Positions 1 through 14,334 of a DNA stretch of 64,000 nt are shown here, one piece after another. The notes under the pieces are model-generated. The model did no database searches and had not been told where the DNA came from. It worked only from the letters and a program-made list of their open reading frames with translations. Origin of the DNA: Caecibacter massiliensis (GTDB taxonomy: Bacteria > Bacillota > Negativicutes > Veillonellales > Megasphaeraceae). Positions within the stretch are counted from its first letter, which is position 1; every line of letters begins with the position of its first letter. Location of the stretch: the NCBI GenBank assembly GCA_900095875.1, contig LT608311.1:1488001-1552000 (forward strand). The letters run 5' to 3'. Made by a program: the position numbers and the translations under genes.

Positions 1-1707
1 GCTACCTTGTTTTCCCTCTTTGTTTCCTTCACCCTGACTCCTATGCTGGCATCCCGGCTGTTTAAAAAAGGGGCAGAAGTAAAGAAGCGGCCTTTGTGGC
101 AATTTATGGACCGCATGGAGGAACGGGCCCGCCAGGAATATACGAAGATACTTACATGGAGTATTGATCATCCGCGGAAACTGGTCCTGCCCATCCTGTT
201 TTTGTTTGCAGTGGCACTGGGACTCCTGGTCAGCGGTACCGTGGGGTCGGAATTTATGCCGCAGACGGATGAAAGCGGGTTCCGCGTATCCATCCAGCTG
301 CCGGCAAATGCCAGCCTGGATAGAACAAATGGCGTCGCCCGGCAGATAGAAGATTATCTGAAGACTGTACCGGAAGTCACTTATTATACGGCTATGGTAG
401 GAGGAAAGCGGCAGAATGAAGCGACTATCAAAGTGACGCTGGACGACCGACGCAACCGTTCCCGGTCTATCTGGGATGTGACCAATGAGGTACGTAAATT
501 CGCCGCAGCCCATGTGTGGGATGGTACGGTACGGGTCCGGGAAGACCAGGCTTCCGTAGCCGGTACATCCGGCGGCTATGGCGGCGGATCCGGGAATCTC
601 CGGCTGGAACTCCGTGGCAAGGATAATGAACGGCTGCTCCAGAAATCGAAAGAAATCGAAACATGGATGCAGACGGATATTGCCGGCCTCAACGGGGTCA
701 GCAGTTCGTATGAAGATGGTATGCCTGAATACCGGCTTGTGGTGGACCGGGTGAAATTAAAACAGTACGGAGCATCACTGGATGATCTCAATAAAAATTT
801 CTCCAATGCTATCAGTGGGCAGAAAGCGGGAGTATTGCCAAACGATGCTAAAAACGATAATAACGATACAGATATTTACGTGCGGCTGAAAGGCGCCGAT
901 TCTTTCGGCGTATCCGATCTCAGACGAATCCCGCTCAATGCCAATGGTCATATCATCTTTGTCAGTGACGTGGCGCAGATTGTATCGGCTACAGGGCCGG
1001 TCACGATCCGCCGTACGGACAAAGAGCGGAGTATTACCCTGGGAGCCGTGCCGCAGGGCAGACCGCTCAGCGATATCATTCAGGACATAACGGCCCATTT
1101 GCAGACGATGGACTTGCAGGGCATCACCTACCGGTTTACCGGACAGGCAGATCAGATGACGATGGCATTCAGGAGTCTGGGCGAAGCCCTGGGATTATCG
1201 CTCATCCTGATATTCATGATTCTGGCGATTCTCTATGAATCCATCAAAACACCGTTTATCCGCATGTTTTCTCTCCCTCTGGGCCTGATTGGTTCTGTGT
1301 TCCTTCTGTTCCTCACGAATAATACGCTCAATCTTTATTCATTGATTGGCATTCTGGTCATGGACGGCATGGTGGCGAAAAACGGGACTCTGCTCCTGGA
1401 TTACACACTGACGCTGATTCATGAGCAGCATATGGATGTACGCAGCGCCGTCATCGAAGCCGGACGGGTCCGGCTTCGTCCTATTTTCATGACGACTCTT
1501 ACGATGATTGTGGGGATGCTGCCGACGGCATTATCTATGTCAGCCGGCTCAGAGACACGGTCCAGCATGGCCGTTGTCGTTATTGGCGGCCTGATTACAT
1601 CGACCGTATTTACCCTTGTGATTATTCCTATCCTGTTCCTTTTTATTGAAAACCACAGACCGGGCAGGAAAGGGGCTGATTCAGAGAAACGGCGCGTTAC
1701 CGGATAA
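1..1707 (+). CDS. RND efflux transporter permease, C-terminal part (5' end outside window)
   Basis: This is the C-terminal 568 residues of an inner-membrane AcrB/HAE1-type RND pump, which exports drugs or other hydrophobic compounds across both membranes with a periplasmic adaptor and outer-membrane channel. The reading frame is open from base 1, so the true start lies upstream. Visible are the end of the first transmembrane block (FTLTPMLASRLF), a large soluble porter domain, and a second block of about five hydrophobic helices with the family segment GILVMDGMVAKNGTLLLDYT. The conserved MTTLTMIVGMLPTALS also appears. The tail after the last helix is short and basic. No adaptor or TolC gene is in view; they would be expected to the left. 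Substrate cannot be told. Family assignment is firm. Confidence 0.93.
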   Translation, partial: ATLFSLFVSFTLTPMLASRLFKKGAEVKKRPLWQFMDRMEERARQEYTKILTWSIDHPRKLVLPILFLFAVALGLLVSGTVGSEFMPQTDESGFRVSIQLPANASLDRTNGVARQIEDYLKTVPEVTYYTAMVGGKRQNEATIKVTLDDRRNRSRSIWDVTNEVRKFAAAHVWDGTVRVREDQASVAGTSGGYGGGSGNLRLELRGKDNERLLQKSKEIETWMQTDIAGLNGVSSSYEDGMPEYRLVVDRVKLKQYGASLDDLNKNFSNAISGQKAGVLPNDAKNDNNDTDIYVRLKGADSFGVSDLRRIPLNANGHIIFVSDVAQIVSATGPVTIRRTDKERSITLGAVPQGRPLSDIIQDITAHLQTMDLQGITYRFTGQADQMTMAFRSLGEALGLSLILIFMILAILYESIKTPFIRMFSLPLGLIGSVFLLFLTNNTLNLYSLIGILVMDGMVAKNGTLLLDYTLTLIHEQHMDVRSAVIEAGRVRLRPIFMTTLTMIVGMLPTALSMSAGSETRSSMAVVVIGGLITSTVFTLVIIPILFLFIENHRPGRKGADSEKRRVTG

Positions 1708-1863
1708 CGGGTACGCAACGAGGGGCAGAATCAGCAACAATATAACTTTTTTTACAACGCAGTTTATATTTTCTTAAAGAAATATTCTTATACTATGGGC
1801 ACAGGAAAAAGAATTCTCTGATTTCAGATAGCTTCATTCCCTGAAATGATGAAAGGTGATTCT

Positions 1864-2811
1864 ATGATATCGATCATTACCCCTGTGTACAATGAAGAAG
1901 AAAATATAAACTGCTTTTATGATGCCGTCACGGCCGTTATGAAACAAGTGGGAATGGATTATGAACTGATATATGTCAACGATGGATCCCGCGATGGGAC
2001 TGAAAAGGAAATCAGCCGGCTGGCAGCTGCCGATCCTCACGTCCGGGCTGTTTCGCTGGCACGAAATTTCGGTCATCAGATTGCACTTACCTGTGGAATG
2101 GATCTTTCCATCGGAGATGCCATCATCACGCTGGATGGAGACATGCAGCATCCACCGGCCCTGATTCCTGCGCTGATAGCCCGGTGGCAGGAAGGATATG
2201 ATATCGTCCAGACCGTACGGGAAACGACGGAAAATGCCAGCCTTTTCAAACGGGTTACGTCCGCTGCCTATTATAAGCTCATGAATGCTATATCTGTGAC
2301 GTCCGTCGTTCCCGGAGGATCTGATTTCCGGCTCGTGGACCGGAAAGCCCTTTCCGTCTTCCGGCGCTTCCGCGAACACAGCCGTTTTATCCGTGGTATT
2401 GTAGGAGGACTGGGATTCCGGCAGACGACGCTGTCATTCAAAGCACCGGCCAGACATGCGGGCACGTCGAAATTTTCCCTGCGGAAAATGCTTCATCTGG
2501 CTATGGACGGCATCATTACCAACTCGACGGTACCGCTTCGTCTGACCTTTTATATCGGATTCCTGGGAGCCTTTGCCGGGCTGCTGATGATTATATATGT
2601 TTGTTATTGTCACATTGCGGGCATTACCGTGCCGGGCTGGTCCACGACAGTGATTCTCCTGGCAATCTTCGGCAGTGTCAACCTCATGGCTCTGGGCATA
2701 TTAGGCGAATACATCGGCCGTATTTTTGAAGAAACGAAACAGCGGCCATTGTATTGGCTGGCCAGTGATTCAAAGGAAACAGAACCGGACCGGTCCTTTA
2801 CCGGCCGGTGA
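1864..2811 (+). CDS. Family 2 glycosyltransferase, GtrB/DPM1-like, membrane-bound
   Basis: A 315-residue GT2 enzyme expected to move a sugar from a nucleotide donor to polyprenyl phosphate at the inner membrane face. The N-terminal GT-A fold begins MISIITPVYNEEENI, and the nucleotide/metal site is TLDGDMQHPP. Two hydrophobic C-terminal helices (around residues 225-250 and 265-290) match the GtrB/ArnC/dolichol-phosphate-mannose-synthase layout. An upstream in-frame ATG at 1846 exists, but AAAGGTGAT at 1850-1858 is a good ribosome site for ATG 1864, so that start is chosen. The gene ends 14 bases before the convergent ABC operon. Partner glycosyltransferases are not in view, so the acceptor (teichoic acid, O-antigen, lipid A) is unknown. 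Confidence 0.88.
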   Translation: MISIITPVYNEEENINCFYDAVTAVMKQVGMDYELIYVNDGSRDGTEKEISRLAAADPHVRAVSLARNFGHQIALTCGMDLSIGDAIITLDGDMQHPPALIPALIARWQEGYDIVQTVRETTENASLFKRVTSAAYYKLMNAISVTSVVPGGSDFRLVDRKALSVFRRFREHSRFIRGIVGGLGFRQTTLSFKAPARHAGTSKFSLRKMLHLAMDGIITNSTVPLRLTFYIGFLGAFAGLLMIIYVCYCHIAGITVPGWSTTVILLAIFGSVNLMALGILGEYIGRIFEETKQRPLYWLASDSKETEPDRSFTGR

Positions 2812-2825
2812 TAGTTTTTTTGTCT

Positions 2826-3569
2826 TTATAACAGGGACGACAGTAATTCTTGCGTATAGGTCTGCTGTGGATGATGAAATAGTTGTTCTGCCGGCCCCTC
2901 CTCTACAGCTCGTCCGTGATGCATGATGAGAATCCGGTCTGCCATGGTCCGGGCCAGATAGAGGTCATGGGTAATAAACAGGCAGGCTATGCGGTGATGT
3001 TGGCATATGCGGCGTATCAGGCCTGCGATTTCATTGCGGATGGTGGCATCGAGAGCACTGGTCACTTCATCACAGATGAGCAGTTCCGGGCCTATGACAA
3101 GGCTGCGGAGCAGGGCTGCTCTCTGACATTCGCCACCGCTGACTTCATGGGGATAGCGCCGGATAATATCTCTCGTCAAATGTACTTCTTCCATATATTG
3201 CTGGAACATTTCTGGTGTAACCGGAAGGTGATAATTGCGAATTCCGGCCAGAATGCTTTTTTCCAGTGTAAACCGGGGATGGAAAGACCGGTACGGATGC
3301 TGAAAGACCATCTGTATGTGCCGGTATAGTTGTTTCCTTTCTTTTTCTGGCACATTAGTAATGTCCTGATCATGAAAGAGAATATGGCCGCTGTCGGCCC
3401 GGGAAAACTGACAGATGATGCGGCAGAGCGTACTTTTTCCGCTGCCGCTTTCACCGGCAACAGCGAGAATTTCACCGGGGGGCAGAGAGAAAGACAGATG
3501 GTCTACGGCGGCAAAACGATGACCATTATGGGTATAGGTTTTTGTTAGATCCTGTACTTCAAAAAACAT
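2826..3569 (-). CDS. ABC transporter ATPase, OppF/NikE type
   Basis: A 247-residue ATP-binding subunit of a nickel/peptide-type importer. Walker A (GESGSGKST), signature SGGECQRAALLRSL, Walker B (LLICDEVTSAL) and the switch His (ITHD) are all present. It is the last gene of a five-gene minus-strand operon (two permeases, lipoprotein, two ATPases) and follows its partner ATPase by 12 bases. The pair would form the heterodimeric motor. It lacks the long C-terminal oligopeptide extension that many OppF proteins have, so it is nearer the NikE size. Whether the cargo is nickel, a metal chelate or a peptide cannot be read from this subunit. Confidence 0.9.
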   Translation of the reverse strand: MFFEVQDLTKTYTHNGHRFAAVDHLSFSLPPGEILAVAGESGSGKSTLCRIICQFSRADSGHILFHDQDITNVPEKERKQLYRHIQMVFQHPYRSFHPRFTLEKSILAGIRNYHLPVTPEMFQQYMEEVHLTRDIIRRYPHEVSGGECQRAALLRSLVIGPELLICDEVTSALDATIRNEIAGLIRRICQHHRIACLFITHDLYLARTMADRILIMHHGRAVEEGPAEQLFHHPQQTYTQELLSSLL

Positions 3570-3581
3570 AAGACAATCCTT

Positions 3582-4340
3582 TCAGAGTCCGGAATGGGAC
3601 AGCAATTCCCGTGTATAAGCAGAGCCTGGGTGTTTCAATACAGCCGGTGCCGGCCCGTATTCCTGAATCCGGCCCGATTTTAAAACGAGTAGTGTGTCTG
3701 CCAGATAGGAGGCCAGCCGCAGGTCATGGGTGACGAGGATGATGGCTGTACGATGATGACGACGCAGCCGGAGCAGTGCATCAGCCATTTTTTTCTGGGT
3801 GATGCTGTCTACAGCCGATGTCGGTTCATCAGCCAGGACCAGCCGTGGCGGGATAATAAGGGGAAATAAGAGTTCGGCCCGCTGGATCATGCCACCGGAC
3901 AGTTCCTGCGGATAGGAAGCCAGACTATCTGGCGGCAGGGACAGAACAGAAGCCCGGTCGGCGAGGATGCGATCAAATTCCTGATGACAGAGTCCGGCAG
4001 CGCGGGCGGCATCCCAGAGCTGCTGGTACACCGTACAGACCGGGCAGAATGACGTCAGGGCATCCTGGAATACGACACTGATTCCTGTGGGGCGGAGTGC
4101 TTTCCAGGATGACTGGTGGTGGAGCCGGTGGCCGTCCCAGGTAATGATTCCCCGGGTGATTGTGGTATCGGGTGCCGGCAGGCCGGCAGCAGTGCGCAGC
4201 AGGGTCGATTTGCCACTGCCGCTTTCACCGGCAATGACCAGTATTTCTCCTTCCTGCAGAGTAAAGGAGATATCGTTTGCTAAAGGCTTGTTTGCGGCAC
4301 AAATGGTAATATGCTGAAACGTAAGGAGAGGTTCTGACAT
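3582..4340 (-). CDS. ABC transporter ATPase, OppD/NikD type
   Basis: A 252-residue ATP-binding subunit, partner of the ATPase immediately downstream. Walker A is GESGSGKST, the signature is SGGMIQRAELLFPL, Walker B is LVLADEPTSAV and the switch is VTHD. The family call rests on the pairing of two such ATPases with two DppB/DppC-like permeases and a family 5 binding protein. The gene starts 18 bases after the binding-protein gene, consistent with one transcript. It is shorter than OppD (about 330 residues) and of NikD length (about 250). Specificity sits mainly in the binding protein, so the nickel label is only by resemblance. Confidence 0.89.
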   Translation of the reverse strand: MSEPLLTFQHITICAANKPLANDISFTLQEGEILVIAGESGSGKSTLLRTAAGLPAPDTTITRGIITWDGHRLHHQSSWKALRPTGISVVFQDALTSFCPVCTVYQQLWDAARAAGLCHQEFDRILADRASVLSLPPDSLASYPQELSGGMIQRAELLFPLIIPPRLVLADEPTSAVDSITQKKMADALLRLRRHHRTAIILVTHDLRLASYLADTLLVLKSGRIQEYGPAPAVLKHPGSAYTRELLSHSGL

Positions 4341-4358
4341 AGTGAGAGGCTCCTGGTT

Positions 4359-5906
4359 CTATTGGATATCTAATTCCGGTGTGATTTCATAGTAATCACA
4401 GGGATGGGCGGAAAAGCCGGTTACGTTCTTTTTCATGACGATATTCATCTTCAGGAATGAGGCGTACCATACGGCGTTGTCATCGAGTACCTGCTGCTGG
4501 ATTTGTCGTGCCAGTTCTATGCGCTGCCCGGCATCAAAGGTATTGTGAAGTTCATCTATCATCGCATCGGTCCGGGGATTGTTGTAGTGACCATTGTTAT
4601 ACGGCTGCCCTGAATAGATTTTACTCATGAGATAATATTCCGGGTCCCCCGTAGGTGCTGTCACGATTGCCTGGGCATATATATCGTATTCCCCGCGTTT
4701 CAGGAAGTCCTTGTAATTATCCGTGGCGTTGACATCGAGTTTGATGCCGATATCTTTCAGGGCCGACTGGGCGTATTCGGCGAGAAGAGGAAGTTCCTGG
4801 CGTGACGTGTAAGTCAGCCAGCGCAGTGTCAGAGGCTGGCCGTCCTTTATGACGTAACCATCGCTGTCTGTTTCTGTATACCCCGCTTCTTTCAGCAAGG
4901 TTTTGGCTTGTTCCGGATCATATCCAGGGCCATTCAGTCCCTTTCCATAAGGTGTCGTATCAGGGAAAGCGCCCGTTGCCATAACTCCGTTGCCATTCAG
5001 CAGTACATTTGCAAAGGTGTTTTTGTCCAGGGCCATGGCGATGGCTTTGCGTATGCGGTTATCCTGGAGTGCCGGTGTTTTAAAATTCATAGCTGCCTGA
5101 TATACACGGGACGTGGCAGCCGAACTAATATTATATTTGTCTGTATCCTGGAAATTAGGCAGGCTGGCATAGGGCAGCCCCTGAACGGCATCGAGTTCTC
5201 CACTTTGCATAGCCATGGACAAGGAGTCGCCATCAGTAATGCTGCGGACGACGATTTTATCTAATTTTGGCTTTGTCTGGCCCCAGTATTGTTCGTTCTT
5301 TTTGAGTTCTATGCCCTGGTCGGTCACTTTGATTGCCACATAGGGGCCGGTACCGACGGCGATTCTGTCTTTGATGCCGGCTTCCATGTCAATAATGGCA
5401 CCATACGGATCTGCCAGGTAATGAATCATGGCAGGTACCTTTTCTGACGAGTGGATGATGACAGTCTGACCGTCAGCGGTGATCTGGTCGATCTTCAGAT
5501 CATGGGGAGCCCGGTCATTCCGTTTGATGAGGTCTTCCAGACAGGCCTTAACGGCTTCGCCCGTTACTTTTTTTCCGTTGGAAAAGGTAATATCATCGCG
5601 CAAGTGGATTTTTAGCGTATAATCATCCATTTGTTCATATGATTCGGCAAGCCAGGGCTGGACATTCATTTCATTGTCGAATTTAAACAGTGTTTCCCCT
5701 ACACCATAGCGGATTGTACTCCAGCCACAGTAGGTATCATGAGGATCTGTGCTGGCGTTCTGCATAGCCGGGCCGTAGGCCATGGTCCCATAATGAAATA
5801 CCTTCCCTTCTTCTTTCGCTGTTTTGCCTGCATCGGATCCGCAGCCCGATACGAGCAGGGATGCTCCCAGAAGGGCTGTAATCAGATATTTGAATTTGTT
5901 GTTCAT
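4359..5906 (-). CDS. Solute-binding lipoprotein, family 5 (NikA/DppA/OppA-like)
   Basis: A 515-residue extracytoplasmic binding protein that delivers substrate to the two permeases. It has a lipoprotein signal peptide ending in the lipobox LVSGC and then the family 5 fold (AESYEQMDDYTLKIHLRDDI; a C-terminal segment starting YNNPRTDAMIDELHN). An in-frame GTG nine bases earlier is rejected because GAGGTG is spaced well for the ATG at 5906. It lies third in the operon, after the permeases, unlike E. coli nik where it is first. Divergent methyltransferases, one fused to a metal-sensor domain, make a metal or metal-chelate cargo attractive, but family 5 proteins also bind peptides and other ligands. 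Confidence 0.88.
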   Translation of the reverse strand: MNNKFKYLITALLGASLLVSGCGSDAGKTAKEEGKVFHYGTMAYGPAMQNASTDPHDTYCGWSTIRYGVGETLFKFDNEMNVQPWLAESYEQMDDYTLKIHLRDDITFSNGKKVTGEAVKACLEDLIKRNDRAPHDLKIDQITADGQTVIIHSSEKVPAMIHYLADPYGAIIDMEAGIKDRIAVGTGPYVAIKVTDQGIELKKNEQYWGQTKPKLDKIVVRSITDGDSLSMAMQSGELDAVQGLPYASLPNFQDTDKYNISSAATSRVYQAAMNFKTPALQDNRIRKAIAMALDKNTFANVLLNGNGVMATGAFPDTTPYGKGLNGPGYDPEQAKTLLKEAGYTETDSDGYVIKDGQPLTLRWLTYTSRQELPLLAEYAQSALKDIGIKLDVNATDNYKDFLKRGEYDIYAQAIVTAPTGDPEYYLMSKIYSGQPYNNGHYNNPRTDAMIDELHNTFDAGQRIELARQIQQQVLDDNAVWYASFLKMNIVMKKNVTGFSAHPCDYYEITPELDIQ

Positions 5907-5911
5907 ACATG

Positions 5912-6727
5912 TCACCTCGTCGTTTTGGAATCGGCCAGATCGCGCAGACTATCGGCAAAAATCTGGAATATGGCCACGGTAATAAATATAGCAGCACCTG
6001 GAACAAAAATTGTCCATGGGGCAGTCTGCAGCAGGTTACGCGCACCGCTCATCATCGATCCCCATTCAGCAGCCGGAGGGGCAGCACCGAGTCCGAGAAA
6101 GGAAAGACCGGCAATTTCCGTGATAATCGTACCGATGTCAAGAGCGGCGGTGATCAATACGGGACCTATGATTTCAGGCAGAATCTGTACGAGCAGGATT
6201 TTTAAAGGAGAAAAACCGCTCATGAGGGCCGCTTCGATGTAATATTCATGGCGTAGCGGCAGTACCTGATTGCGTACGAGACGTGTATATTTAGGCCAGG
6301 CAACGGCGGCGATGGCCGCGGCGGCATTGAACGTACCGCCGCCCAGTATGCCGGCCACGGCGATGGCAAAGACCATAGATGGAAAGGCGAGGAATACGTC
6401 GGTCAGGCGGAGCAGTATGGTCGTTGCCTTTCCTTTATGATAACCGCAGATCAGTCCGATAAAGGCGCCAAAAGAAGATGCTGCCAGGGCTACTGCCAGC
6501 GCAGTACATACGGTCGTCCTGGCGCCCGCTAAGGTGCGGGACAACATATCCCGGCCATAGCGGTCTGTCCCGAGCCAATGGATGGCATCGGGCGGTCTGA
6601 GCGCCATAGTCAGATTCTGGTCGTACGGGCCGAAGGGCATAATATAGTCTGCCAGAAAAGAGACCGCAAGGATTACCAGAATCAGGGATAAAAAGAAGTA
6701 AAAGCGGCGTTGTTTCGTAAGGTACAT
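5912..6727 (-). CDS. ABC transporter permease, NikC/DppC type
   Basis: A 271-residue inner-membrane permease of the nickel/peptide importer. Typical features are an N-terminal helix followed by a short soluble stretch containing HWLGTDRYGRDMLSR, then five further helices with the EAA-type coupling loop (AALMSGFSPLKILLVQILPE). It starts only 3 bases after the end of the other permease gene and ends 5 bases before the binding-protein start, so the genes are co-transcribed. Length and topology match DppC/NikC. No damage is visible. Confidence 0.91.
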   Translation of the reverse strand: MYLTKQRRFYFFLSLILVILAVSFLADYIMPFGPYDQNLTMALRPPDAIHWLGTDRYGRDMLSRTLAGARTTVCTALAVALAASSFGAFIGLICGYHKGKATTILLRLTDVFLAFPSMVFAIAVAGILGGGTFNAAAAIAAVAWPKYTRLVRNQVLPLRHEYYIEAALMSGFSPLKILLVQILPEIIGPVLITAALDIGTIITEIAGLSFLGLGAAPPAAEWGSMMSGARNLLQTAPWTIFVPGAAIFITVAIFQIFADSLRDLADSKTTR

Positions 6728-6730
6728 GAG

Positions 6731-7669
6731 TCAGTCCTCCTTTTCCCGGGCAGCAATGCGCGGGTCGAGAAAACGGCAGACTATATCAGAAAGAAGATTG
6801 ACTCCGACGTATATAAGGGACATCCATATGACGTATGCCTGAATGATGGGATAATCGCGCATCATAATCGCATCTACAGCCAATTTTCCGATGCCGTCCC
6901 AAAGGAAGATAGATTCGATGATGGCGGCACCGCCCAGCAGGGATCCGGCCGATACGGCGAGCAATGCCAGAAGGGGTGCCAGTACGGAACGCAGTACATA
7001 GCGGGTGATGACGAACTGGTAAGATAGTCCCCGGGACAGGGCGGCCTGTACATATTCCTTGCTCAGTTCATCGAGGAATACAGCCCGTATCTGGCGCGTG
7101 TATTTGGCCGTCATAGCGATAGCAAGGGTAAGGGCGGGCAGAATGGGCAGCATGGATGAGCTTGTACCCAGAAAAGAAAAAACATGCCACTTTACGGCGA
7201 ATATATATAACAAAATAATAGCGATAAAAAAATCTGGCAGAGAATTTCCGGTAAACGACAGCAGGCGGACCAGCTGGTCCCAGATACTGCCTTTGCGGAT
7301 TGCCGCAAGAATGCCCAGCGGCAGGGATATGAGCAATGTCAGCCCCAATGCCATGGCCATCAATTCAATCGTAGTAGGCAGCTTGTCCATAATCATCGTA
7401 AAGACGGGCATGCCGGAAACGAAGGAATTTCCCATATCGCCATGGAGTATGTTAACGACCCAGGATGCATACTGGGTAAAAAAATCCTGATCCAGGCCCA
7501 GACTGGCACGGCGGGCAGCCGCTGCAGCTTCGTTGGCGCCCCCGTTCTGGTCATACAGGATATCGACTGTATCGGTCGAAACGGTGTGCATCAGGGCGAA
7601 TGACATGAACGTAATGCCTATCAGTATGAGAATAAGGTGCAGCAGCCGTTTCCATATATACCGTTTCAT
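6731..7669 (-). CDS. ABC transporter permease, NikB/DppB type
   Basis: A 312-residue permease and first gene of the five-gene importer operon. The N-terminal helix begins MKRYIWKRLLHLILILIGIT and the coupling loop contains LSRGLSYQFVITRYVLR, both usual for DppB/NikB. A longer frame extends upstream to 7708, but AAAGAGGT sits just before ATG 7669, making that the likely start. The gene diverges from the methyltransferase cluster across about 235 bases that hold promoters in both directions and a C/G-tract palindrome. That arrangement suggests shared control. Confidence 0.91.
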   Translation of the reverse strand: MKRYIWKRLLHLILILIGITFMSFALMHTVSTDTVDILYDQNGGANEAAAAARRASLGLDQDFFTQYASWVVNILHGDMGNSFVSGMPVFTMIMDKLPTTIELMAMALGLTLLISLPLGILAAIRKGSIWDQLVRLLSFTGNSLPDFFIAIILLYIFAVKWHVFSFLGTSSSMLPILPALTLAIAMTAKYTRQIRAVFLDELSKEYVQAALSRGLSYQFVITRYVLRSVLAPLLALLAVSAGSLLGGAAIIESIFLWDGIGKLAVDAIMMRDYPIIQAYVIWMSLIYVGVNLLSDIVCRFLDPRIAAREKED

Positions 7670-7716
7670 AAAGAGACCTCTTTCCTGGGAGAATCTATCG
7701 GTAATCAACGCTATTA

Positions 7717-7747
7717 ATTATAATATATTTTTATGAAAAATGGTAAG
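7717..7747 (-). promoter_or_regulatory. Predicted promoter of the nickel/peptide-type ABC operon
   Basis: On the minus strand a perfect -10 TATAAT occupies 7722-7717. A weak -35 TTACCA sits 18 bases upstream (7746-7741). Transcription would start near 7710, about 40 bases before the first permease ATG. The -35 matches consensus at only four positions, so an activator or de-repression may be needed. Confidence 0.5.
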
Positions 7748-7810
7748 CCGGGTAGGGGGATGCAGTCAATAAAAGTCTCTTATACTGCATGCAGGAATTC
7801 TGTGTTTCCA

Positions 7811-7829
7811 TATGCCCCCTGAGGGGATA
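7811..7829. promoter_or_regulatory. Candidate metal-regulator operator (C/G-tract palindrome)
   Basis: TATGCCCCCTGAGGGGATA is an imperfect inverted repeat: TAT-CCCC against GGGG-ATA. CsoR/RcnR-family repressors are known to bind G/C tracts flanked by A/T ends. It lies between the divergent ABC operon and the methyltransferase genes, one of which carries a CsoR/RcnR-type domain. The site is seen directly; the assignment to that protein family is inference. Confidence 0.4.
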
Positions 7830-7856
7830 GTCAAAAAAGAGTTTTGCTTATATACT

Positions 7857-7885
7857 TTTAAGTAAATATACGGGTATGCTATAAA
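7857..7885 (+). promoter_or_regulatory. Predicted promoter of the first methyltransferase gene
   Basis: An extended -10 (TGC then TATAAA at 7880-7885) lies about 20 bases before the start codon of the gene at 7905. The -35 region (TTTAAG near 7857-7862) is poor. The extended -10 could compensate, or a regulator may be required. The C/G palindrome at 7811-7829 is about 30 bases upstream of the -35. Confidence 0.4.
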
Positions 7886-7904
7886 TCATCAGGGGGAAAT
7901 ACAG

Positions 7905-8648
7905 ATGGAGGAACTTAGCAAACAAATTCAGGAATATTGGAATAAGCGCAGTCAGGATTTTAGTACAGTGCGACGCAGAGAACTGGCCAGCCCGGATGCA
8001 CTGGCCTGGCAGTCCTATATTATGAAATATTTACCACGTGGCCGCCGATTGAAGATATTGGATATCGGTACCGGCCCGGGGTTCCTGGCTATTCTCATGG
8101 CACGCCTGGGACATGATGTCACAGCCATTGATTCTTCGACAGGCATGATACAAGAGGCCCGGCGGAATGCGGCGGAACATCACGTATCTGTTGATTTTCA
8201 GGCAGGTGACGCTCAGGCACTGCCGTTTGCATCGGCTTCGTTTGACGTAGTATTGTCTCGTAATCTGACGTGGAACCTGCCAAATGCAGTGAAGGCGTAC
8301 CAGGACTGGCACCGCGTACTGCGCGATGGCGGATTGCTTTTGAATTTTGATTCCGATTATGGTCCTGTTCAGTTTACCTCGGCTGCATCAGAAGAAAAGA
8401 ATATTCATCATACTGTCGATTCGGACCTTATCCGGGAGTGCGAATCCCTGAAAGATGCCTTATCTATCAGCAGGGAATGTCGTCCGGCATGGGATATGTA
8501 CCGGCTGCAGGATATCGGATTTACCGATTGTCAGTGCGTAAAAGATATCCGTCCGGTTGTTCATATTTCATCGTGTATGCAATATGATTCGGCTCCCTTA
8601 TTCTGCCTTTCAGCACACAAAAAAGGATTGGCCCGCTGTGCCCATTGA
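7905..8648 (+). CDS. Class I SAM-dependent methyltransferase
   Basis: A 247-residue Rossmann-fold methyltransferase. SAM-binding motif I is LDIGTGPGFLAILMA (about residues 51-65), the acidic motif II residue is in VTAIDSS, and motif IV/post-motif is SRNLTWNLP. It resembles the gene at 9695, which has the same LDIGTGPGFxAILMA motif and the related CRNVTWILY. The two are probably paralogues with different substrates. It is the first gene of a plus-strand cluster divergent from a nickel/peptide importer. It has a ribosome site AGGGGGAAA. Substrate is unknown; nothing points to rRNA, quinone or DNA methylation. A small-molecule substrate linked to the importer is inference. Confidence 0.85.
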   Translation: MEELSKQIQEYWNKRSQDFSTVRRRELASPDALAWQSYIMKYLPRGRRLKILDIGTGPGFLAILMARLGHDVTAIDSSTGMIQEARRNAAEHHVSVDFQAGDAQALPFASASFDVVLSRNLTWNLPNAVKAYQDWHRVLRDGGLLLNFDSDYGPVQFTSAASEEKNIHHTVDSDLIRECESLKDALSISRECRPAWDMYRLQDIGFTDCQCVKDIRPVVHISSCMQYDSAPLFCLSAHKKGLARCAH

Positions 8649-8663
8649 CATGATCTGTTTCCA

Positions 8664-8692
8664 TTGACACACGGCGACGGTGAACGTATCAT
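8664..8692 (+). promoter_or_regulatory. Predicted promoter of the methyltransferase-metal sensor fusion gene
   Basis: TTGACA (8664-8669), a 17-base spacer and TATCAT (8687-8692) form a near-consensus promoter in the 90-base gap before the fusion gene. TGACA recurs four times in this gap (near 8646, 8665, 8697 and 8709), possibly regulatory. The fusion gene may therefore be transcribed separately from the first methyltransferase. Confidence 0.6.
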
Positions 8693-8738
8693 AAGACATG
8701 ACAACGTGTGACAATTCTTTCAAATAGTGGTGAAAGCA

Positions 8739-9686
8739 ATGGATAAAGAACATGTTTTTTTTGAAAATTATGCCGGGACCTGGGACCGGGACCGCAAGGA
8801 AAATCCGGAAATCCTGTCATTCCTGGTAAAACTCATAGGGCTTTCGGCCGGTGATACGGTACTCGACGCCGGCAGCGGGACGGGCATTCTGCTTCCCTAT
8901 CTGCATCAGGCGGTAACGGACACCGGACGGGTGGAAGAACTGGATTATTCCCATCGTATGCTGGAACAGGCCAGACAGAAGTTTGCATCCGTTCCGGGCA
9001 TTACATATACAGAAAAGGATATTTTAAAATACAAACTTCCACAGAATGCATATGATGCGATAGTTTGCCTGAACTTTTATCCACACATTGCACAGTATAA
9101 AGAAGTCTTTATTAAGAAGATGACCAATGCGCTTAAACAGGACGGGGCACTTATCATCATGCACGACATGTCCCGGAACCGGGTCAATGCGATGCATGAT
9201 CAGGGGGAAAAAACGCTGTCCTGCGTCCTTCCTCCCGTAGATATCATGGCAACGATGCTGATTACGGCGGGACTTTCTGTATCAATAGCCATGGATACGG
9301 ATTCATACTATTTCATCAAGGCGGAAAAGAAGCAGTATATCCCCTATGAACAGTATCCGGAACCGCATTTTCAGGAAGAAACTTCCCGTCAGGAAACGGA
9401 TACTTCCGGGCACAGTCACGTACACAGTCATACGCAGACAAAGGCTGTCATGAATCGGCTGGCCCGGATCAGCGGCCATCTGGAAGCGATTAAGCGCATG
9501 GTAGAAGAAGGACGGGATTGCAGTGATATTCTAATTCAGATTTCTGCGGTCGATTCTGCCCTGGTAAGTGTGGGAAAAGTGATTCTCCGCGATCATATTG
9601 ACCATTGCATTGTCGATGCGGTAAAAGATAATGATATGGAAGCTGTAGACAATTTGAAAAAAGCCATTACGACATTCATTAAATAG
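8739..9686 (+). CDS. Methyltransferase fused to a CsoR/RcnR-family metal-sensor domain
   Basis: A 315-residue two-domain protein. Residues 1 to about 200 are a class I SAM methyltransferase (motif I VLDAGSGTGILL near residue 41). Residues about 223-235 are a His-rich linker (SGHSHVHSHTQTK, four His). Residues about 236-315 match the all-helical CsoR/RcnR/FrmR fold (MNRLARISGHLEAIKRMVEE...). The sensor positions are Cys261, His286 and Cys290; the +25/+29 spacing equals the C-H-C ligand triad of CsoR, whereas RcnR has His at the last position. Stand-alone members of this family are small DNA-binding repressors. ATG 8739 is chosen over GTG 8727 because GGTGA precedes it. The domain could bind DNA, bind metal to gate the enzyme, or both. 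The fusion is seen; the role is inference. Confidence 0.85.
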   Translation: MDKEHVFFENYAGTWDRDRKENPEILSFLVKLIGLSAGDTVLDAGSGTGILLPYLHQAVTDTGRVEELDYSHRMLEQARQKFASVPGITYTEKDILKYKLPQNAYDAIVCLNFYPHIAQYKEVFIKKMTNALKQDGALIIMHDMSRNRVNAMHDQGEKTLSCVLPPVDIMATMLITAGLSVSIAMDTDSYYFIKAEKKQYIPYEQYPEPHFQEETSRQETDTSGHSHVHSHTQTKAVMNRLARISGHLEAIKRMVEEGRDCSDILIQISAVDSALVSVGKVILRDHIDHCIVDAVKDNDMEAVDNLKKAITTFIK

Positions 9687-9694
9687 GAGATAGC

Positions 9695-10450
9695 ATGGAG
9701 ATGCAGGACAAGGCCAGGGCTGTGGGCCAGCGCTGGGATTATTGTGCCGCCGGGTACGACAAGATAATAGAAGAAGAACGGCAGACACAGGAAGAATACT
9801 GGCGTCAGCTGCTTATGGCACATCGGCCTGCCCAATCGGGCGAATTACTTGATATAGGTACAGGACCGGGATTTTTTGCCATCCTCATGGCAAAAGCCGG
9901 CTGGAAGGTCACAGGCATAGATTGTTCGGCCACCATGATAGAAACGGCATCGCGTAATGCCCGGAAAGCGGGAATAGATGCCACATTCCGGCAGGAAGAT
10001 ATTCATGCCACATCTTTTCCCGGCCAGTCCTTCGATTACATAGTCTGCCGGAATGTCACCTGGATTCTGTATGACCCGGAAAAAGCCTTTTGCGAGTGGT
10101 TCCGGCTGTTAAAGCCAGGGGGCCGTCTCTTGTATCTGGATGCCAACTGGTATTATGTAAAAGACGAAGCGGAACGGGCGGCAAGGGAACGCGATGAGAA
10201 AGAATACCGCCGGTTATATGGCGTGCCTGTCGATACGTATTGTGGTGATGATCTTACCGATCAGACGTTTCAACAGACCCTGTTTTTTAATCACGTTGAC
10301 CGGCCGCGTTGGGACCGGGACCATCTGTCCCGGTTTGGATTTACCAACGTGCAGATTACGCCACGGCTGAACGAGCAGGTCTATGATGAAAAGTACCGGC
10401 TGTTATTCCATTCTATTCCGCTTTTTATGGTGACGGCAGATAAAAAATAA
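9695..10450 (+). CDS. Class I SAM-dependent methyltransferase
   Basis: A 251-residue methyltransferase, 8 bases after the fusion gene and surely co-transcribed. Motif I is LDIGTGPGFFAILMA, motif II is VTGIDCSATMIE and the active-site region is CRNVTWILYDPEKAF. Both motif I and the CRNVTW region closely match the methyltransferase at 7905 (LDIGTGPGFLAILMA, SRNLTWNLP), pointing to duplication and divergence. After the catalytic core there is a polar stretch rich in Glu/Arg (DEAERAARERDEKEYRRLYG) that probably forms a substrate lid. An intrinsic terminator follows at about 10522, closing the cluster. Substrate unknown. Confidence 0.85.
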   Translation: MEMQDKARAVGQRWDYCAAGYDKIIEEERQTQEEYWRQLLMAHRPAQSGELLDIGTGPGFFAILMAKAGWKVTGIDCSATMIETASRNARKAGIDATFRQEDIHATSFPGQSFDYIVCRNVTWILYDPEKAFCEWFRLLKPGGRLLYLDANWYYVKDEAERAARERDEKEYRRLYGVPVDTYCGDDLTDQTFQQTLFFNHVDRPRWDRDHLSRFGFTNVQITPRLNEQVYDEKYRLLFHSIPLFMVTADKK

Positions 10451-10521
10451 TAGGATACGGATAAAATCTTGTCTGTGGCGGATAGGTGCTGGCGGACCGG
10501 CAATAAGGATGATTTTATACA

Positions 10522-10560
10522 CGAAACGGGACTGTTTTTAGGACAGCCCGTTTTCTTTTT
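10522..10560 (+). terminator. Intrinsic terminator after the methyltransferase cluster
   Basis: The hairpin pairs AAACGGG-CTGT with ACAG-CCCGTTT and is followed by TTTTCTTTTT. It ends the plus-strand cluster and separates it from the macro-domain gene. Confidence 0.8.
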
Positions 10561-10596
10561 CCTTCAGCCGTACGGGATACAGAAAGGGGGATTATA

Positions 10597-10605
10597 TGTT
10601 ATAAT
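10597..10605 (+). promoter_or_regulatory. Extended -10 promoter of the macro-domain gene
   Basis: TGTTATAAT is an extended -10 (TG-n-TATAAT) 38 bases before the start codon at 10644. No good -35 is seen, which extended -10 promoters tolerate. Confidence 0.55.
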
Positions 10606-10643
10606 ACGGTAAAGAGATTCCTCTTACTAAAGGATGTGATACC

Positions 10644-11399
10644 ATGCAATTGCGCATTATCTGTGGAGATATAACGACCTGGCCGGCAGAGGCGATTGTC
10701 AATTCAGCCAGTGAAAGCCTGATGAGTACTGGCGGCCTGGATAACCGCATTTATCAGGCAGGAGGCATTTCCTTGCGTGCTGCCTGCAGCAGTCTCGGCG
10801 GCTGCCCGGAAGGGAAAGCGGTACTTACCTTTGGGTATAAATTGCCGGCCCGCTATGTGATTCATACGGTGGCTCCGTTCTGGCGCGGAGGAAGCCATCA
10901 CGAAGAGTCGCAGCTGCTGTCTTGTTACCGGGCCAGTCTGTCTCTGGCGAGAGAAAAGGAAGTGCATCATCTGGCATTTTCGTCTCTGGGAACGGGAGAT
11001 AAACGGATTCCTCTGAACCGGGCTGCGGACGTTGCCATCCCTGTACTTCTGGAAGAAGGATTTGGGTTTTCGCGTATCGACTTTGTCTGTGAAACACAAG
11101 AAGAACAGGACGCCTATACTAAGGCGGTCATTTTTTACTGGCTGCAGCAGATTAATGATGCGGCAAAAGAGGATATACACACCGTATTGGAAAAGGCGTT
11201 GACGGCATTGACCGTGCTTCGCCAGACGAGTGATGGCCAGGAACCGATGGCCCAGGCTGATATGCTTCTGTCCCTGCGGCATACTCTGCATCCGTTTGCA
11301 GCCCTGCCGGTACCGCGGAGCATTATGAATCTGGAAAGTACGGCGCGGCAGGTGATGGACATTTATCATCTGGCCGGGACGAAGGCACAGGCCAACTAA
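10644..11399 (+). CDS. Macro-domain protein (ADP-ribose-type ligand)
   Basis: A 251-residue protein whose first about 165 residues form a macro domain (IICGDITTWPAEAIVNSASES; glycine loop STGGLDNRIYQAGG; FSSLGTGDKRIP). Macro domains bind ADP-ribose and some remove it from proteins or deacetylate O-acetyl-ADP-ribose. The ligand loops are divergent: the usual GGGGVDGAIH is TGGLDNRIY and the usual STGVYGYP is GTGDKRIP, so hydrolase activity is uncertain. Residues about 165-251 are a helical tail without recognised motif. The CpXC-protein gene follows 15 bases later, so the two are probably an operon of about 1.6 kb. Confidence 0.85.
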   Translation: MQLRIICGDITTWPAEAIVNSASESLMSTGGLDNRIYQAGGISLRAACSSLGGCPEGKAVLTFGYKLPARYVIHTVAPFWRGGSHHEESQLLSCYRASLSLAREKEVHHLAFSSLGTGDKRIPLNRAADVAIPVLLEEGFGFSRIDFVCETQEEQDAYTKAVIFYWLQQINDAAKEDIHTVLEKALTALTVLRQTSDGQEPMAQADMLLSLRHTLHPFAALPVPRSIMNLESTARQVMDIYHLAGTKAQAN

Positions 11400-11414
11400 A
11401 AGGAGATATGAAAG

Positions 11415-12227
11415 ATGGATACTATTATTATTGGCAGCGGTGGCAGTCATGAAATCGATTTGTCCCTGACCTGTCCGGCATGTCACGGAAAGGGCGTATT
11501 TCATACGTGGGACTGTATCAATGGCACCGATGACCTGGCAATGCGCCAGCGCGTACTGCATGACCAGTCACTCTTCTTCTACACCTGTCCACACTGCCAG
11601 AGTGCAGTCCATGTAGAAGAAAAATGTCTGTACTTTGATAAAAAGAAGCATTTCATGGTATGGCATATTCCCGATTTAAAAATGACCGTTACCAGTGGAG
11701 AAGTTGAAGATTTCCTGGGACAGAATGATTTTTCCGGATATGACTGCCGGGTAGCTCTTACCTGGGGAGAATGGCGGGAAAAGATTATAGAAATGGAAAG
11801 TCCCTTTGACGACCGGCTGTACGAGCTGATTAAATATGGGGCATATCAGTTGCTGAAACCGGAGCAGAAAGAAAAACTGCCTCTGGAAATGTACCACTTC
11901 GATTACGCTGACGATTCGTATCAGCCAGATCAGCTGGCCCTTGTATTCATGGAAGCAGACCAGAAGGGAAACGGCTATGTATATCCCGTGAATACGAAGA
12001 TGCTGGAAGTGACTCACGATGTATTCCTGCCGGTTCTGCAGAAACTTTCACCGCAAGCCGGGAAGGGGGTATTTGAACGGTATGGATATTCCTGGGCTGA
12101 ACATTTTATGAAATATATCATAGAAGCAGCCAAAAAGCCCGGGATGGAGACGTACAGTCAGCTCGTCGGATTCTGGATACGGACGATAGGGCGCGAAATT
12201 TTTCAGACAGAATTAAAAGGGCAGTAA
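11415..12227 (+). CDS. CpXC-domain protein
   Basis: A 270-residue soluble protein. The N-terminal about 110 residues carry two CPxC pairs (TCPACHGKG and TCPHCQSAV), the hallmark of the CpXC family, likely a structural zinc site. The rest (about residues 110-270) is acidic and alpha-helical with no known motif. Function of the family is not established. It is tightly downstream of the macro-domain gene (ribosome site AAAAGGAGATATG), so the two products may work together. A long hairpin terminator follows. Confidence 0.8.
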   Translation: MDTIIIGSGGSHEIDLSLTCPACHGKGVFHTWDCINGTDDLAMRQRVLHDQSLFFYTCPHCQSAVHVEEKCLYFDKKKHFMVWHIPDLKMTVTSGEVEDFLGQNDFSGYDCRVALTWGEWREKIIEMESPFDDRLYELIKYGAYQLLKPEQKEKLPLEMYHFDYADDSYQPDQLALVFMEADQKGNGYVYPVNTKMLEVTHDVFLPVLQKLSPQAGKGVFERYGYSWAEHFMKYIIEAAKKPGMETYSQLVGFWIRTIGREIFQTELKGQ

Positions 12228-12250
12228 CATTTATTCCGAATACAAGACAG

Positions 12251-12305
12251 AGGCAGCAGCAAAATGAACTGTGGGAAGTCATTTTGCTGCTGCCTATTGA
12301 TTTTT
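12251..12305. terminator. Bidirectional terminator between convergent genes
   Basis: A 17-bp stem (left arm 12251-12267, right arm 12279-12295, sequence AGGCAGCAGCAAAATGA and its complement) lies between the plus-strand CpXC gene and the minus-strand membrane protein. A short T-rich tail ATTGATTTTT follows on the plus strand. Confidence 0.8.
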
Positions 12306-12312
12306 CCGTACA

Positions 12313-13431
12313 TTATTTAGCTTTTGTAATCATACTGTAAGCGGCATATCCGCTCTGCCCGGCATGATCTCCTTCTTTAATCGTGATGGGAACGAATCCG
12401 TTTCCATGGGGATTGCCTGTCACTTCGATGGGAACGGCCGATTGGAAAACCAGTACCTGATTGTTCCGCAGCATCGTGCGGATTTTATCCGTATCGTGAT
12501 TTTTAGCAGCTGTAATAAACAGATCAATGTCCTTTTCGTTTATGACGACATAAGTGCCGCGTGTCATCATGTACGTTTTTCCGGATTCAAAATTGGGAAA
12601 TTCCTTTTTTTGTGATTTAGGAACTTCCGTCGATGAATACGATGAGAAATCGACGTGAGCCGGTGCATTCTGGCGCTGGCGGTACATGTAGTACCCAAAC
12701 AGGCAGAGACAGATAATCAGAAGAGGAATGAGACTGAAACGGGTAGCGTGTGTCAGCCGCTCTGAAAGGGGCTGTGGTTCTTCTTCTTCCTCATCTTCCA
12801 TACTTTCTTCTTCCTGCAGTGTATCGGCAGGGAGATTCAGGGCCCCGGCCAGTACCATAGAAAGAGGGACACCGTATCCACTGGCCGGATAAATCATCTG
12901 CAACCGGTCGAGGGCGCTCGTACAAGCCCGGGCCCGGCTGGCAGCATCATCCAGATCGGCACTGAGACGCAGGCGGTGGATAATAGAAATAAATGAATCG
13001 TTTCCCAGATTGGGCATATAGGTAATGGCGAGGAAACGGAGATCGCGGATGTATAACTCAGGCAGCATAAATGTCCGGCCCGATGTTTCATAACTGGCTT
13101 TCAGTGTACGCAGAGTGCGTGAAGCATCATACAAGGCCAGGACATCTCCTTTCAGGAGGGGCAGGATTTGCCGGTCCCATACGGTGGCAAAATCTGCACT
13201 ATGTGCTACCATAGAAGCCGTCACTTTGCGCGAACATGAAAAGTCATCTACCGGTGGCTTTACCAGATAGGTCATGCTGTGAGCTTTGGATTCACTGATC
13301 CAGGCGATAGCGATACGGCAGATGCTGGTATCGTCGCTGCTGGCTTTGTCGAAAGCGATGGCAATGGCCGAGTTATTTTTACGGCGCATGATGGATTGTA
13401 AAATTTGTTGTGTCTTGATGTCCTCCTCCAT
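12313..13431 (-). CDS. Membrane protein with degenerate DEDDh-exonuclease-like domain
   Basis: A 372-residue protein not recognised as a named family. Residues about 20-195 follow the pattern of DnaQ-type 3'-5' exonucleases: a first strand IAIAFDKASSDD, the YLVKPP strand, a middle ATVWDRQILPLLKGDVLALYDAS segment and a final DDAASRARACTSALDRL helix. The catalytic set looks lost: the usual DxE is D-K-A, and the HDALxDA motif lacks its His. An acidic stretch (EEESMEDEEEEEPQPL) leads to one transmembrane helix near residues 232-252, followed by a C-terminal domain of about 115 residues. It shares a transcript with the NYN/LOTUS gene 39 bases upstream. A non-catalytic nucleic-acid-binding or scaffold role is inference. 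Confidence 0.6.
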   Translation of the reverse strand: MEEDIKTQQILQSIMRRKNNSAIAIAFDKASSDDTSICRIAIAWISESKAHSMTYLVKPPVDDFSCSRKVTASMVAHSADFATVWDRQILPLLKGDVLALYDASRTLRTLKASYETSGRTFMLPELYIRDLRFLAITYMPNLGNDSFISIIHRLRLSADLDDAASRARACTSALDRLQMIYPASGYGVPLSMVLAGALNLPADTLQEEESMEDEEEEEPQPLSERLTHATRFSLIPLLIICLCLFGYYMYRQRQNAPAHVDFSSYSSTEVPKSQKKEFPNFESGKTYMMTRGTYVVINEKDIDLFITAAKNHDTDKIRTMLRNNQVLVFQSAVPIEVTGNPHGNGFVPITIKEGDHAGQSGYAAYSMITKAK

Positions 13432-13470
13432 AATACCATCCTTTCTATAAGAGCATCTGGTATGCGGCTA

Positions 13471-14334
13471 TCAGACTTTACTCTGCCGCTTTCTGGACCG
13501 GGATGAATGGGTGTAATGATGACGGTGAACCGGTTTTAATTTGAAATAATTGTGCTTGACCGTTTTATTTTTATCATCGGTAATCGTATTGACTTCGAAC
13601 ATATCCAGAGATTCGATGAAGGGGACAAATTTCTTGAATCCGAAATTGCGGACATCGAAGTCGGAAAATTGTTTGTTGAGCAGATTGCCCAGCGTACCGG
13701 AGAAAATCCAGCCGTTATCGTCGGAATTTTCTTCCGTGATTTTTACCAGCGCCTGCCGGATTGTGCGGAAATTTTTGCCCGAAGTTTTTTCTGATTTGAC
13801 CGGTTCTTCTGTGGCGGGAGAGATGACAGGCGGTGTATCATCGATGATTGCCGGTTTGGCCGCATCCGTTGTTTCTGTATCGGCTTCATTTTCTGCTTCT
13901 TCCAGCAGGACATCGAGATAGAGGAACTTATTGCATGCCGAGATAAAAGACCGGGGCGTCTTACTCTCTCCCATGCCGAGGACGTATTTCTGTGATTCCC
14001 GGAGCCGGGATGCCAGACGGGTGAAATCGCTGTCTGAAGAAACGATGCAGAAACCGTCGAGATTGCTTTGGTATAACAGGTCCATCGTGTCGATGATTAA
14101 TGCTGAGTCAGTCGAATTTTTTCCCGTCGTATTACTGTATTGCTGAATGGGCTGTATGGCATTGTTGAGAATCGTCGTCCGCCATGACGCCATCTGTGGT
14201 GTAGTCCAGTTGCCGTAAATCCGTTTATAAATGACATCGCCAAGATTATTGGCTTCAGATAAAATAACATCAATGTACTTTGTCGAAATATTTTCGGCAT
14301 CAATCAACACCGCAAGTTTCATTTCCTGGTTCAT
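13471..14334 (-). CDS. NYN-domain RNase-like protein with C-terminal OST-HTH/LOTUS domain
   Basis: A 287-residue protein. The N-terminal NYN (PIN-like) nuclease domain spans about residues 5-150: VLIDAENIS, the STDSALIIDTMDLL acidic patch and SSDSDFTRLASRLRE. These Asp residues form the expected metal site, so nuclease activity is plausible. A linker rich in Glu/Pro/Ala leads to a LOTUS/OST-HTH module (about residues 190-270, FRTIRQALVKI...SDFDVRNFGFKKFVPFIES), which in other proteins binds RNA. The tail is basic (RKRQSKV). GGAGGAG precedes the ATG by 9 bases. It is co-oriented with the exonuclease-like membrane gene downstream. RNA processing is the likely theme. Confidence 0.85.
   Translation of the reverse strand: MNQEMKLAVLIDAENISTKYIDVILSEANNLGDVIYKRIYGNWTTPQMASWRTTILNNAIQPIQQYSNTTGKNSTDSALIIDTMDLLYQSNLDGFCIVSSDSDFTRLASRLRESQKYVLGMGESKTPRSFISACNKFLYLDVLLEEAENEADTETTDAAKPAIIDDTPPVISPATEEPVKSEKTSGKNFRTIRQALVKITEENSDDNGWIFSGTLGNLLNKQFSDFDVRNFGFKKFVPFIESLDMFEVNTITDDKNKTVKHNYFKLKPVHRHHYTHSSRSRKRQSKV

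Follow-up and report, generated by a model that had tools for sequence, protein, structure and literature searches.

What do methyltransferase genes do when they share a control region with a nickel-type importer, and why does one of them carry a metal-sensor domain? These questions are raised by a 64,000-nucleotide stretch of the 2.65-Mb genome of Caecibacter massiliensis (contig LT608311.1, positions 1,488,001 to 1,552,000), hereafter the window. In it, a minus-strand five-gene importer operon, nikEDACB (2826-7669), is divergent from three plus-strand class I methyltransferase genes (7905-10450), here called MT1, MT2-CsoR and MT3, and the two groups have a 235-base gap (7670-7904) in common. 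Our answer, to which we give a probability of roughly one half, is that the locus forms a nickel-acquisition regulon resembling that of the sensor InrS, in which the methyltransferases have the imported metal's ligand as their substrate. The components are of known kinds; the pairing of importer and methyltransferase and the fusion of methyltransferase and sensor are new. We found no description of the pairing in openly accessible literature, the nearest being methyltransferases in zincophore clusters, as given in the accessible part of PMC7438024.

Linkage of the methyltransferases to metal importers

A profile of 16 methyltransferases, searched against 398 genomes sampled from the phylum at E 1e-45, gave matches in 30 genomes, namely those of C. 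massiliensis and three members of its genus, plus 26 more. The 32 loci taken from the 26 others cover all 37 listed matches (repeat loci L214 and L215 were left out) and contain 40 methyltransferase (MT) genes as called, which correspond to the 37 profile matches; one MT of L197 is spread over two frames, and identity is low for the calls L204:12583 and L212:9604. Open reading frames (ORFs) beyond the window were predicted with a custom script and took their labels from BLAST, some of these labels being weak. At least one metal-chelate-type importer gene lies within 7 kb of 32 of the 40 MT genes and none for the remaining eight, two of which are at contig ends. Within this distance NikA was found for 25 MT genes, NikB/C for 19, FecCD for six and ATP-binding cassette (ABC) half-transporters for eight. 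Counted by eye, the MT stands in a same-strand run with importer genes at 24 of the 32 loci, a count that leaves out L187, where the NikD/E label on the same strand probably belongs to a different ABC ATPase. Gene orders in these runs include nikBC-MT-QueG-like-nikADE, nikBCDE-MT-nikA, MT-nikABCDE and fecB-fecCD-fecE-MT. When one common tblastn rule was applied to the MT-centred loci and to CsoR-centred control loci, NikA was detected at 19/32 versus 1/78, NikB/C at 16/32 versus 2/78 and FecCD at 6/32 versus 0/78; the 78 controls exclude L104, which carries an MT and nikB, and L033, where an orthologue of the MT2-CsoR fusion lies beside nik.

Genomes reached through named loci, which were picked by their CsoR matches, contain the methyltransferase at E 1e-40 in 17 of 27 cases. 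A Nik importer is present at 16 of the 20 named loci (from 16 genomes; L323 duplicates L182) and absent at L315, L317, L321 and L322, and the named genomes with the pairing belong to Selenomonas, Blautia, Oliverpabstia, Eubacterium and Clostridium. Blautia luti, B. massiliensis, B. schinkii and one Blautia metagenome-assembled genome encode an MT-AstE-MT protein of 813-814 amino acids, and a LysR gene and Nik-type importer genes come after it (L104:13691-16135, upstream of LysR and nikBCADE). Oliverpabstia intestinalis has an AstE-MT form, and in Clostridium ragsdalei MT, nikBCADE, AstE and MATE genes lie on one strand. AstE/AspA enzymes are amide hydrolases, and such a hydrolase beside the MT and importer therefore suits work on an organic ligand. 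An AstE-type gene near a NikA-type gene was also seen in a relative without an MT1 relative at E 1e-20 (L151:9615-10568).

Other genes recur around the pairing. DUF4198, Gate and GNAT genes travel with NikA and the methyltransferase in L191, L207 and L208, and a small Fe-S protein resembling QueG and reductive dehalogenases is encoded between MT and NikA at L195:10210-10908 and L196:9138-9836. The ABC half-transporters were considered as YbtPQ-like importers, a reading that found no support: P-glycoprotein-type chains top both lists of 60 matches shown, with MsbA next; 6p6i, which we take to be YbtPQ, appears near the end of one list.

Closer to C. massiliensis, a sample of 60 genomes (its own and those of 59 relatives) was searched for MT1 relatives at E 1e-20. 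They are present in 36 genomes and adjoin a NikA relative in 12: C. massiliensis with G005, G009, G013, G015 and G016 of the same family, and G023, G041, G043, G052, G054 and G059. G023, G041, G043, G052 and G054, from another family of the order, have a nikBCA-DE-CsoR operon with MT1 divergent. The best named match to MT2-CsoR (78%) is in an uncultured Selenomonadales (L033), where the nik operon is directly divergent from the fusion gene; in G003, MT1 is followed by MT2-CsoR and nik is on another contig. Ten same-genus relatives with the fusion all have a CpXC gene after it, and eight have a macro-domain gene (as called). In the window both genes come after MT3 on its strand (10644-12227), outside the span covered by the preliminary description. 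Importer and all three methyltransferases were found together in the C. massiliensis genome only. The arrangement of the window is therefore particular to it, and the family and order data identify importer-MT1 and MT2-CsoR-CpXC as the recurring blocks. A preliminary description of the locus would have been refuted by a lack of any conserved linkage between importer and methyltransferases. Such linkage was found, as MT1-type genes lie beside or within Nik-type importer operons in the order-level, phylum and named genomes.

Sensor domain, operator sites and the metal

The preliminary description had assigned a CsoR/RcnR domain to the second methyltransferase. It is a CsoR-family domain by its Pfam match (Table 1) and not RcnR-like, as its ligands are those of InrS: H21, C53, H78 and C82 of InrS, which bind Ni, align with H5, C37, H62 and C66, so that the W-X-Y-Z set is H-C-H-C by sequence. 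The nickel ligand set of the InrS/CsoR family is described in the accessible parts of PMC7055735 and PMC4235346. Synechocystis InrS (PDB 5fmn) also has in common with the domain a His-rich N-terminus, and differs in that the domain is fused to a methyltransferase in this genus; 6ahx, a "putative cytosolic protein," outscores InrS as a match. The other CsoR-family gene of the genome (L131:8354-8704) has aspartate at the H21 position; it adjoins a 957-amino-acid ORF and possibly belongs to a copper system. No informative constant neighbour was found for standalone CsoR genes in Clostridia.

Two CsoR-type operators are predicted in the gap. Towards MT1, a promoter-like -35 hexamer running from 7828 adjoins the site at 7811. 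Towards nik, one at 7746-7741 overlaps the weaker operator copy at 7744, which is 75 bp away from the start of nikB, the same distance as the L033 site. Three promoter-like hexamers were found versus 1.2 expected, which is weak evidence. The exact motif TAAGCCCCCTATGGGGATA has three matches in the 60 genomes, each upstream of MT1 or nikB. At up to three mismatches there are 21 sites versus eight for the reversed pattern; six precede MT1/nikB, one precedes larC, and ORFs contain several of the rest. A matrix of the operator matched 13 of 17 hand-chosen MT1/nikB upstream gaps from three families (12 at 0/500 shuffles, G041 at 2/500), three of the 13 being from a further family (G375, G202 and G306). 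G375 is taken to be Schwartzia succinivorans, and G396 to be Selenomonas ruminantium GACV-9, solely on the ground that they match G465 and G456 in their coordinates. Training members were scored with their own site left out, with the exception of G009, whose best site was still present in the matrix through identical twins. In the 1.8-Mb record of the L033 genome, the nik-gap site is the sole operator match.

At up to three mismatches the C. massiliensis genome has two sites, that at 7811 and one approximately 68 bp upstream of larC (LarC 215.7 bits, cut-off 90). LarC inserts nickel into the nickel-pincer cofactor, so a sensor acting on the gap and larC sites would set import, methyltransferases and nickel insertion together. 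A larC gene with a very His-rich N-terminal half was seen after a cobT-like gene and an operator-like site in L220 (555-1433) and L237; this operator-like site is absent upstream of other larC genes examined.

Nickel is ranked first for the window on the strength of the larC site, the Lar_N matches, the InrS ligand set, a CsoR gene in G015 and the lack of a riboswitch. The C. massiliensis genome has seven Lar_N matches (three strong and four weak, one of the weak ones below the cut-off), and no NiFe hydrogenase was found in it. All 11 relatives with a close NikA (E <1e-140) have Lar_N, i.e., a close NikA occurs in 11 of 39 relatives with Lar_N versus none of 20 without (Fisher 0.011, uncorrected for kinship). 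In G015, a standalone CsoR-like gene lies between two Lar_N (LarA superfamily) genes, one a weak match (L124, G015:C30). Rfam detected no riboswitch in positions 1-14000 of the window, with just three weak matches (E 0.14 to 0.95), and no cobalamin riboswitch at seven family/order loci, where two SAM (S-adenosylmethionine) riboswitches far from nik and one tRNA gene were found.

Components of the locus

The layout given in the preliminary description, five left-reading importer genes and three right-reading methyltransferase genes around a 235-base region, was borne out by the ORFs and by Pfam and NCBIfam, and the paralogy that it proposed for MT1 and MT3 holds at 32-33% identity, with the LDIGTGPGF and RN-x-TW motifs in common. 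Pfam recognised two ABC_tran, one SBP_bac_5, two BPD_transp_1, three class I methyltransferase and one Trns_repr_metal domains. A binding protein, two permeases and two ATPases in one operon are the full set for a NikABCDE-type importer, and the locus resembles NikABCDE/Opp nickel importers (SaNikA, NCBIfam Opp2/Opp5A) in its five components and family-5 binding protein, differing from them in the coupled methyltransferases and CsoR-type operator. The nearest solved chains to the NikA-like protein are 3t66 and SaNikA 4ofj, both annotated as nickel-binding. The ATG start of nikB at 7669 is backed by a 312-amino-acid orthologue in L033; the ORF list has a TTG start at 7708.

An Opp/Nik-type importer is also found in staphylopine/opine zincophore loci (CntKLM-CntABCDF). 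The Cnt importer models scored 135.5 bits for CntA (cut-off 800), 177.6 for CntC (440), 175.3 for CntD (380) and 172.2 for CntF (385). No opine dehydrogenase or nicotianamine synthase was found by Pfam/NCBIfam among the window proteins scanned (1846-11396), in agreement with the preliminary description.

All three methyltransferases contain a SAM motif, which in MT2 reads DAGSGTG and is not accompanied by RN-x-TW. A structure model of MT1 (mean predicted local distance difference test score 82.6) retrieved generic class I methyltransferases from the PDB, many of them natural-product enzymes; the natural-product and detoxification methyltransferases RebM, MitM, TmtA and GtmA are among the matches, which fit a small-molecule substrate and name no particular one. 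Several specific identities were rejected for MT1 and MT3 on score: ArsM arsenite methyltransferase (PRK11873; 49.6 and 56.8 bits, cut-off 263), CpaM (60.5 and 63.1, cut-off 180) and the DVU_1556 methyltransferase (59.8 and 63.2, cut-off 155). Corrinoid-protein methyltransferase families were likewise ruled out on cut-offs.

Table 1. Features of the C. massiliensis locus (window positions) and riboswitches at related loci (locus:positions)
Feature	Position	Strand	Basis or remark
NikE/OppF-type ABC ATPase	2826..3569	-	OppF 204.7 bits (cut-off 540), NikE 176.3 bits (cut-off 332.55)
NikD-type ABC ATPase	3582..4340	-	TIGR02770 170.8 bits (cut-off 318.7)
Family-5 solute-binding protein, NikA-like, lipoprotein-like	4359..5915	-	NF045468 Opp5A_nikA 375.3 bits (cut-off 600)
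NikC/Opp2C-type permease	5912..6727	-	Opp2C 280.6 (cut-off 300)
NikB/Opp2B-type permease	6731..7669	-	Opp2B 318.8 (cut-off 350)
Predicted CsoR-type operator, weaker copy, TAAGCCGGGTAGGGGGATG	7744..7762	+	Matrix, 0/500 shuffles; site absent from matrix
Predicted CsoR-type operator, TATGCCCCCTGAGGGGATA	7811..7829	+	1 match in window, shuffle mean 0
MT1, class I methyltransferase of importer-linked family	7905..8648	+	Pfam, relatives, structure model
MT2-CsoR, class I methyltransferase with C-terminal InrS-like CsoR-family domain (~9411-9683)	8727..9686	+	Trns_repr_metal E 9.1e-28, residues 238-315
MT3, second class I methyltransferase of importer-linked family	9695..10450	+	Pfam; relatives adjoin nik in L137, L197, L104
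Macro-domain protein	10644..11399	+	Frequent neighbour of MT2-CsoR in genus
CpXC-domain protein	11415..12227	+	Constant neighbour of MT2-CsoR in genus
Cobalamin riboswitch upstream of MT-nik operon	L195:7332-7520
Cobalamin riboswitch upstream of MT-nik operon	L196:12533-12719
Cobalamin riboswitch upstream of MT-nik operon	L199:3922-4116
Cobalamin riboswitch upstream of MT-nik operon	L308:15558-15731

A proposed nickel regulon, its alternatives and the possible methylation step

In the regulon that we propose, the minus-strand operon would encode an ABC importer of the Nik/Opp type that takes up a nickel (possibly cobalt) chelate, and the CsoR domain of MT2 would be an InrS-like nickel sensor acting on the two gap sites and the one before larC. 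MT1 and MT3 may either make a small-molecule metal ligand or alter the ligand after import. In its apo form the sensor may keep expression down until nickel arrives, or it may activate, as reported for InrS, which binds upstream of nik and enhances import genes in Synechocystis according to the accessible part of a review (PMC7055735). The preliminary description had suggested metal uptake coupled to methylation of a small molecule; the InrS-type ligands, the conserved operator and the larC site strengthen the link to metal, and small-molecule methylation is still a proposal.

A number of results weigh against this regulon. MT1 relatives lie away from NikA in 24 of the 36 order-level genomes, most at 34-40% identity, and the unlinked ones include close relatives in G003 (55%) and in G025, G038 and G042 (48-49%); the MT1 relative of the L033 genome (42%, L321) has no importer in the 10.9 kb around it, and no nik gene was found near MT2-CsoR in the stretches fetched from ten same-genus relatives. 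All five importer proteins miss the curated NCBIfam cut-offs for NikA/B/C/D/E. The matrix found no operator in G015, G016 or either G003 gap. The larC-upstream site was found in one of 30 larC upstream regions at up to three mismatches (39 genomes have larC; in several of the 30 regions the match starts inside the gene, and the true promoter may be missed), so a larC operator conserved in relatives is rejected and the site is peculiar to C. massiliensis. The second-shell glutamates of InrS, Glu95 and Glu98, are not kept in the MT2 domain (A78 and N81, in an alignment read by eye with a gap nearby), and in the known nickel sensors of the CsoR family metal causes derepression, which would be odd for control of an importer. 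CsoR fingerprints do not allow the metal to be predicted, according to the accessible part of PMC4235346. A cobalamin riboswitch is directly upstream of the MT-nik operon in four of 42 MT loci scanned, all four clostridial.

These four riboswitches (L195, L196, L199 and L308) suggest cobalt as the metal there, and the wider alternative is that cobalt, not nickel, is the metal handled and the methyltransferase step concerns cobalt or corrinoid supply. CbiM is two genes from MT in L204, and the larC site of C. massiliensis sits between a cobT-like gene and larC. Cobalamin riboswitches are also reported for two clostridial nik systems in PMC2667541, the part of which covered here makes no mention of a nik-adjacent methyltransferase. 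The methyltransferase family seems to go with both nickel and cobalt. We nevertheless regard cobalt handling as unlikely for the window: no cobalamin riboswitch was found in its first 14,000 bases or at the seven family/order loci, the gene downstream of the operator is larC and not cobT, and the InrS-type ligands and Lar_N genes count against it. That ordinary methyltransferases lie beside a peptide/nickel transporter by coincidence would agree with the commonness of class I methyltransferases, the uniqueness of the whole C. massiliensis arrangement, the eight MT genes with no importer within 7 kb and the unlinked MT1 relatives of the order; it is made highly improbable by the excess of NikA at MT loci over control loci and by MT genes inside importer operons in several families.

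The synthesis of a ligand is a more specific alternative, in which MT1 and MT3 build or finish a small secreted nickel or cobalt metallophore for recovery by the adjacent importer, a MATE or ABC half-transporter serving as exporter in some lineages. MATE genes are directly beside nik-MT in Selenomonas (L182 and L310), C. ragsdalei (L314) and Fusibacillus (L316), one lies approximately 5 kb away in L187 and a weaker MATE relative is beside L308. ABC half-transporters are near eight of the 40 MT genes, and a GNAT acetyltransferase gene adjoins importer genes in L191, L207 and L208; the MATE and GNAT genes thus favour synthesis and export. Some opine zincophore clusters contain extra methyltransferases of unclear role, according to the part of PMC7438024 noted above. 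Against synthesis, no nonribosomal peptide synthetase or other scaffold-making gene recurs in the same-strand runs (most neighbours were judged by eye), no exporter was recognised beside most loci, the window included, and CntM (PF10100) had no matches in 39 genomes, in a search whose control was equally silent. We therefore treat it as a possible, rather doubtful explanation. Since no scaffold-making gene was recognised, a step after import is favoured, and tentatively, with less expectation than for synthesis, MT1 and MT3 could be release enzymes that methylate donor groups of the ligand after entry, so that the metal is let go and is not bound again. Siderophore loci of the Fes, FhuF and ViuB type have a cytosolic release enzyme beside the importer, and they too combine importer and cytosolic enzyme with no recognised scaffold synthase; here a SAM methyltransferase takes the place of their reductase or esterase, and unlike in those loci an AstE-type hydrolase joins in Blautia, Oliverpabstia and C. 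ragsdalei. Both release of metal by ligand methylation and ligand synthesis fit the data.

Returning to the nickel-acquisition regulon, the pairing of importer and methyltransferase hints at a so far undescribed chemical step in nickel or cobalt uptake. To our knowledge, the natural ligand for nickel uptake by Nik-type importers is an open question. A methyltransferase family found inside the Nik operons of several families of the phylum, including gut Blautia and rumen Selenomonas, should have that ligand or its precursor as substrate. Ni(II) chelates are not known to be opened by one-electron reduction, unlike iron siderophores, and ligand methylation would therefore be a new route for unloading metallophores. 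If release is the function, methylation, together with the AstE-type hydrolase in Blautia and C. ragsdalei, would unload metallophores, with another methyltransferase being fused to the nickel sensor. In C. massiliensis, the locus supplies a candidate sensor, together with a defined operator, through which nickel might control the cofactor pathway of lactate racemase.

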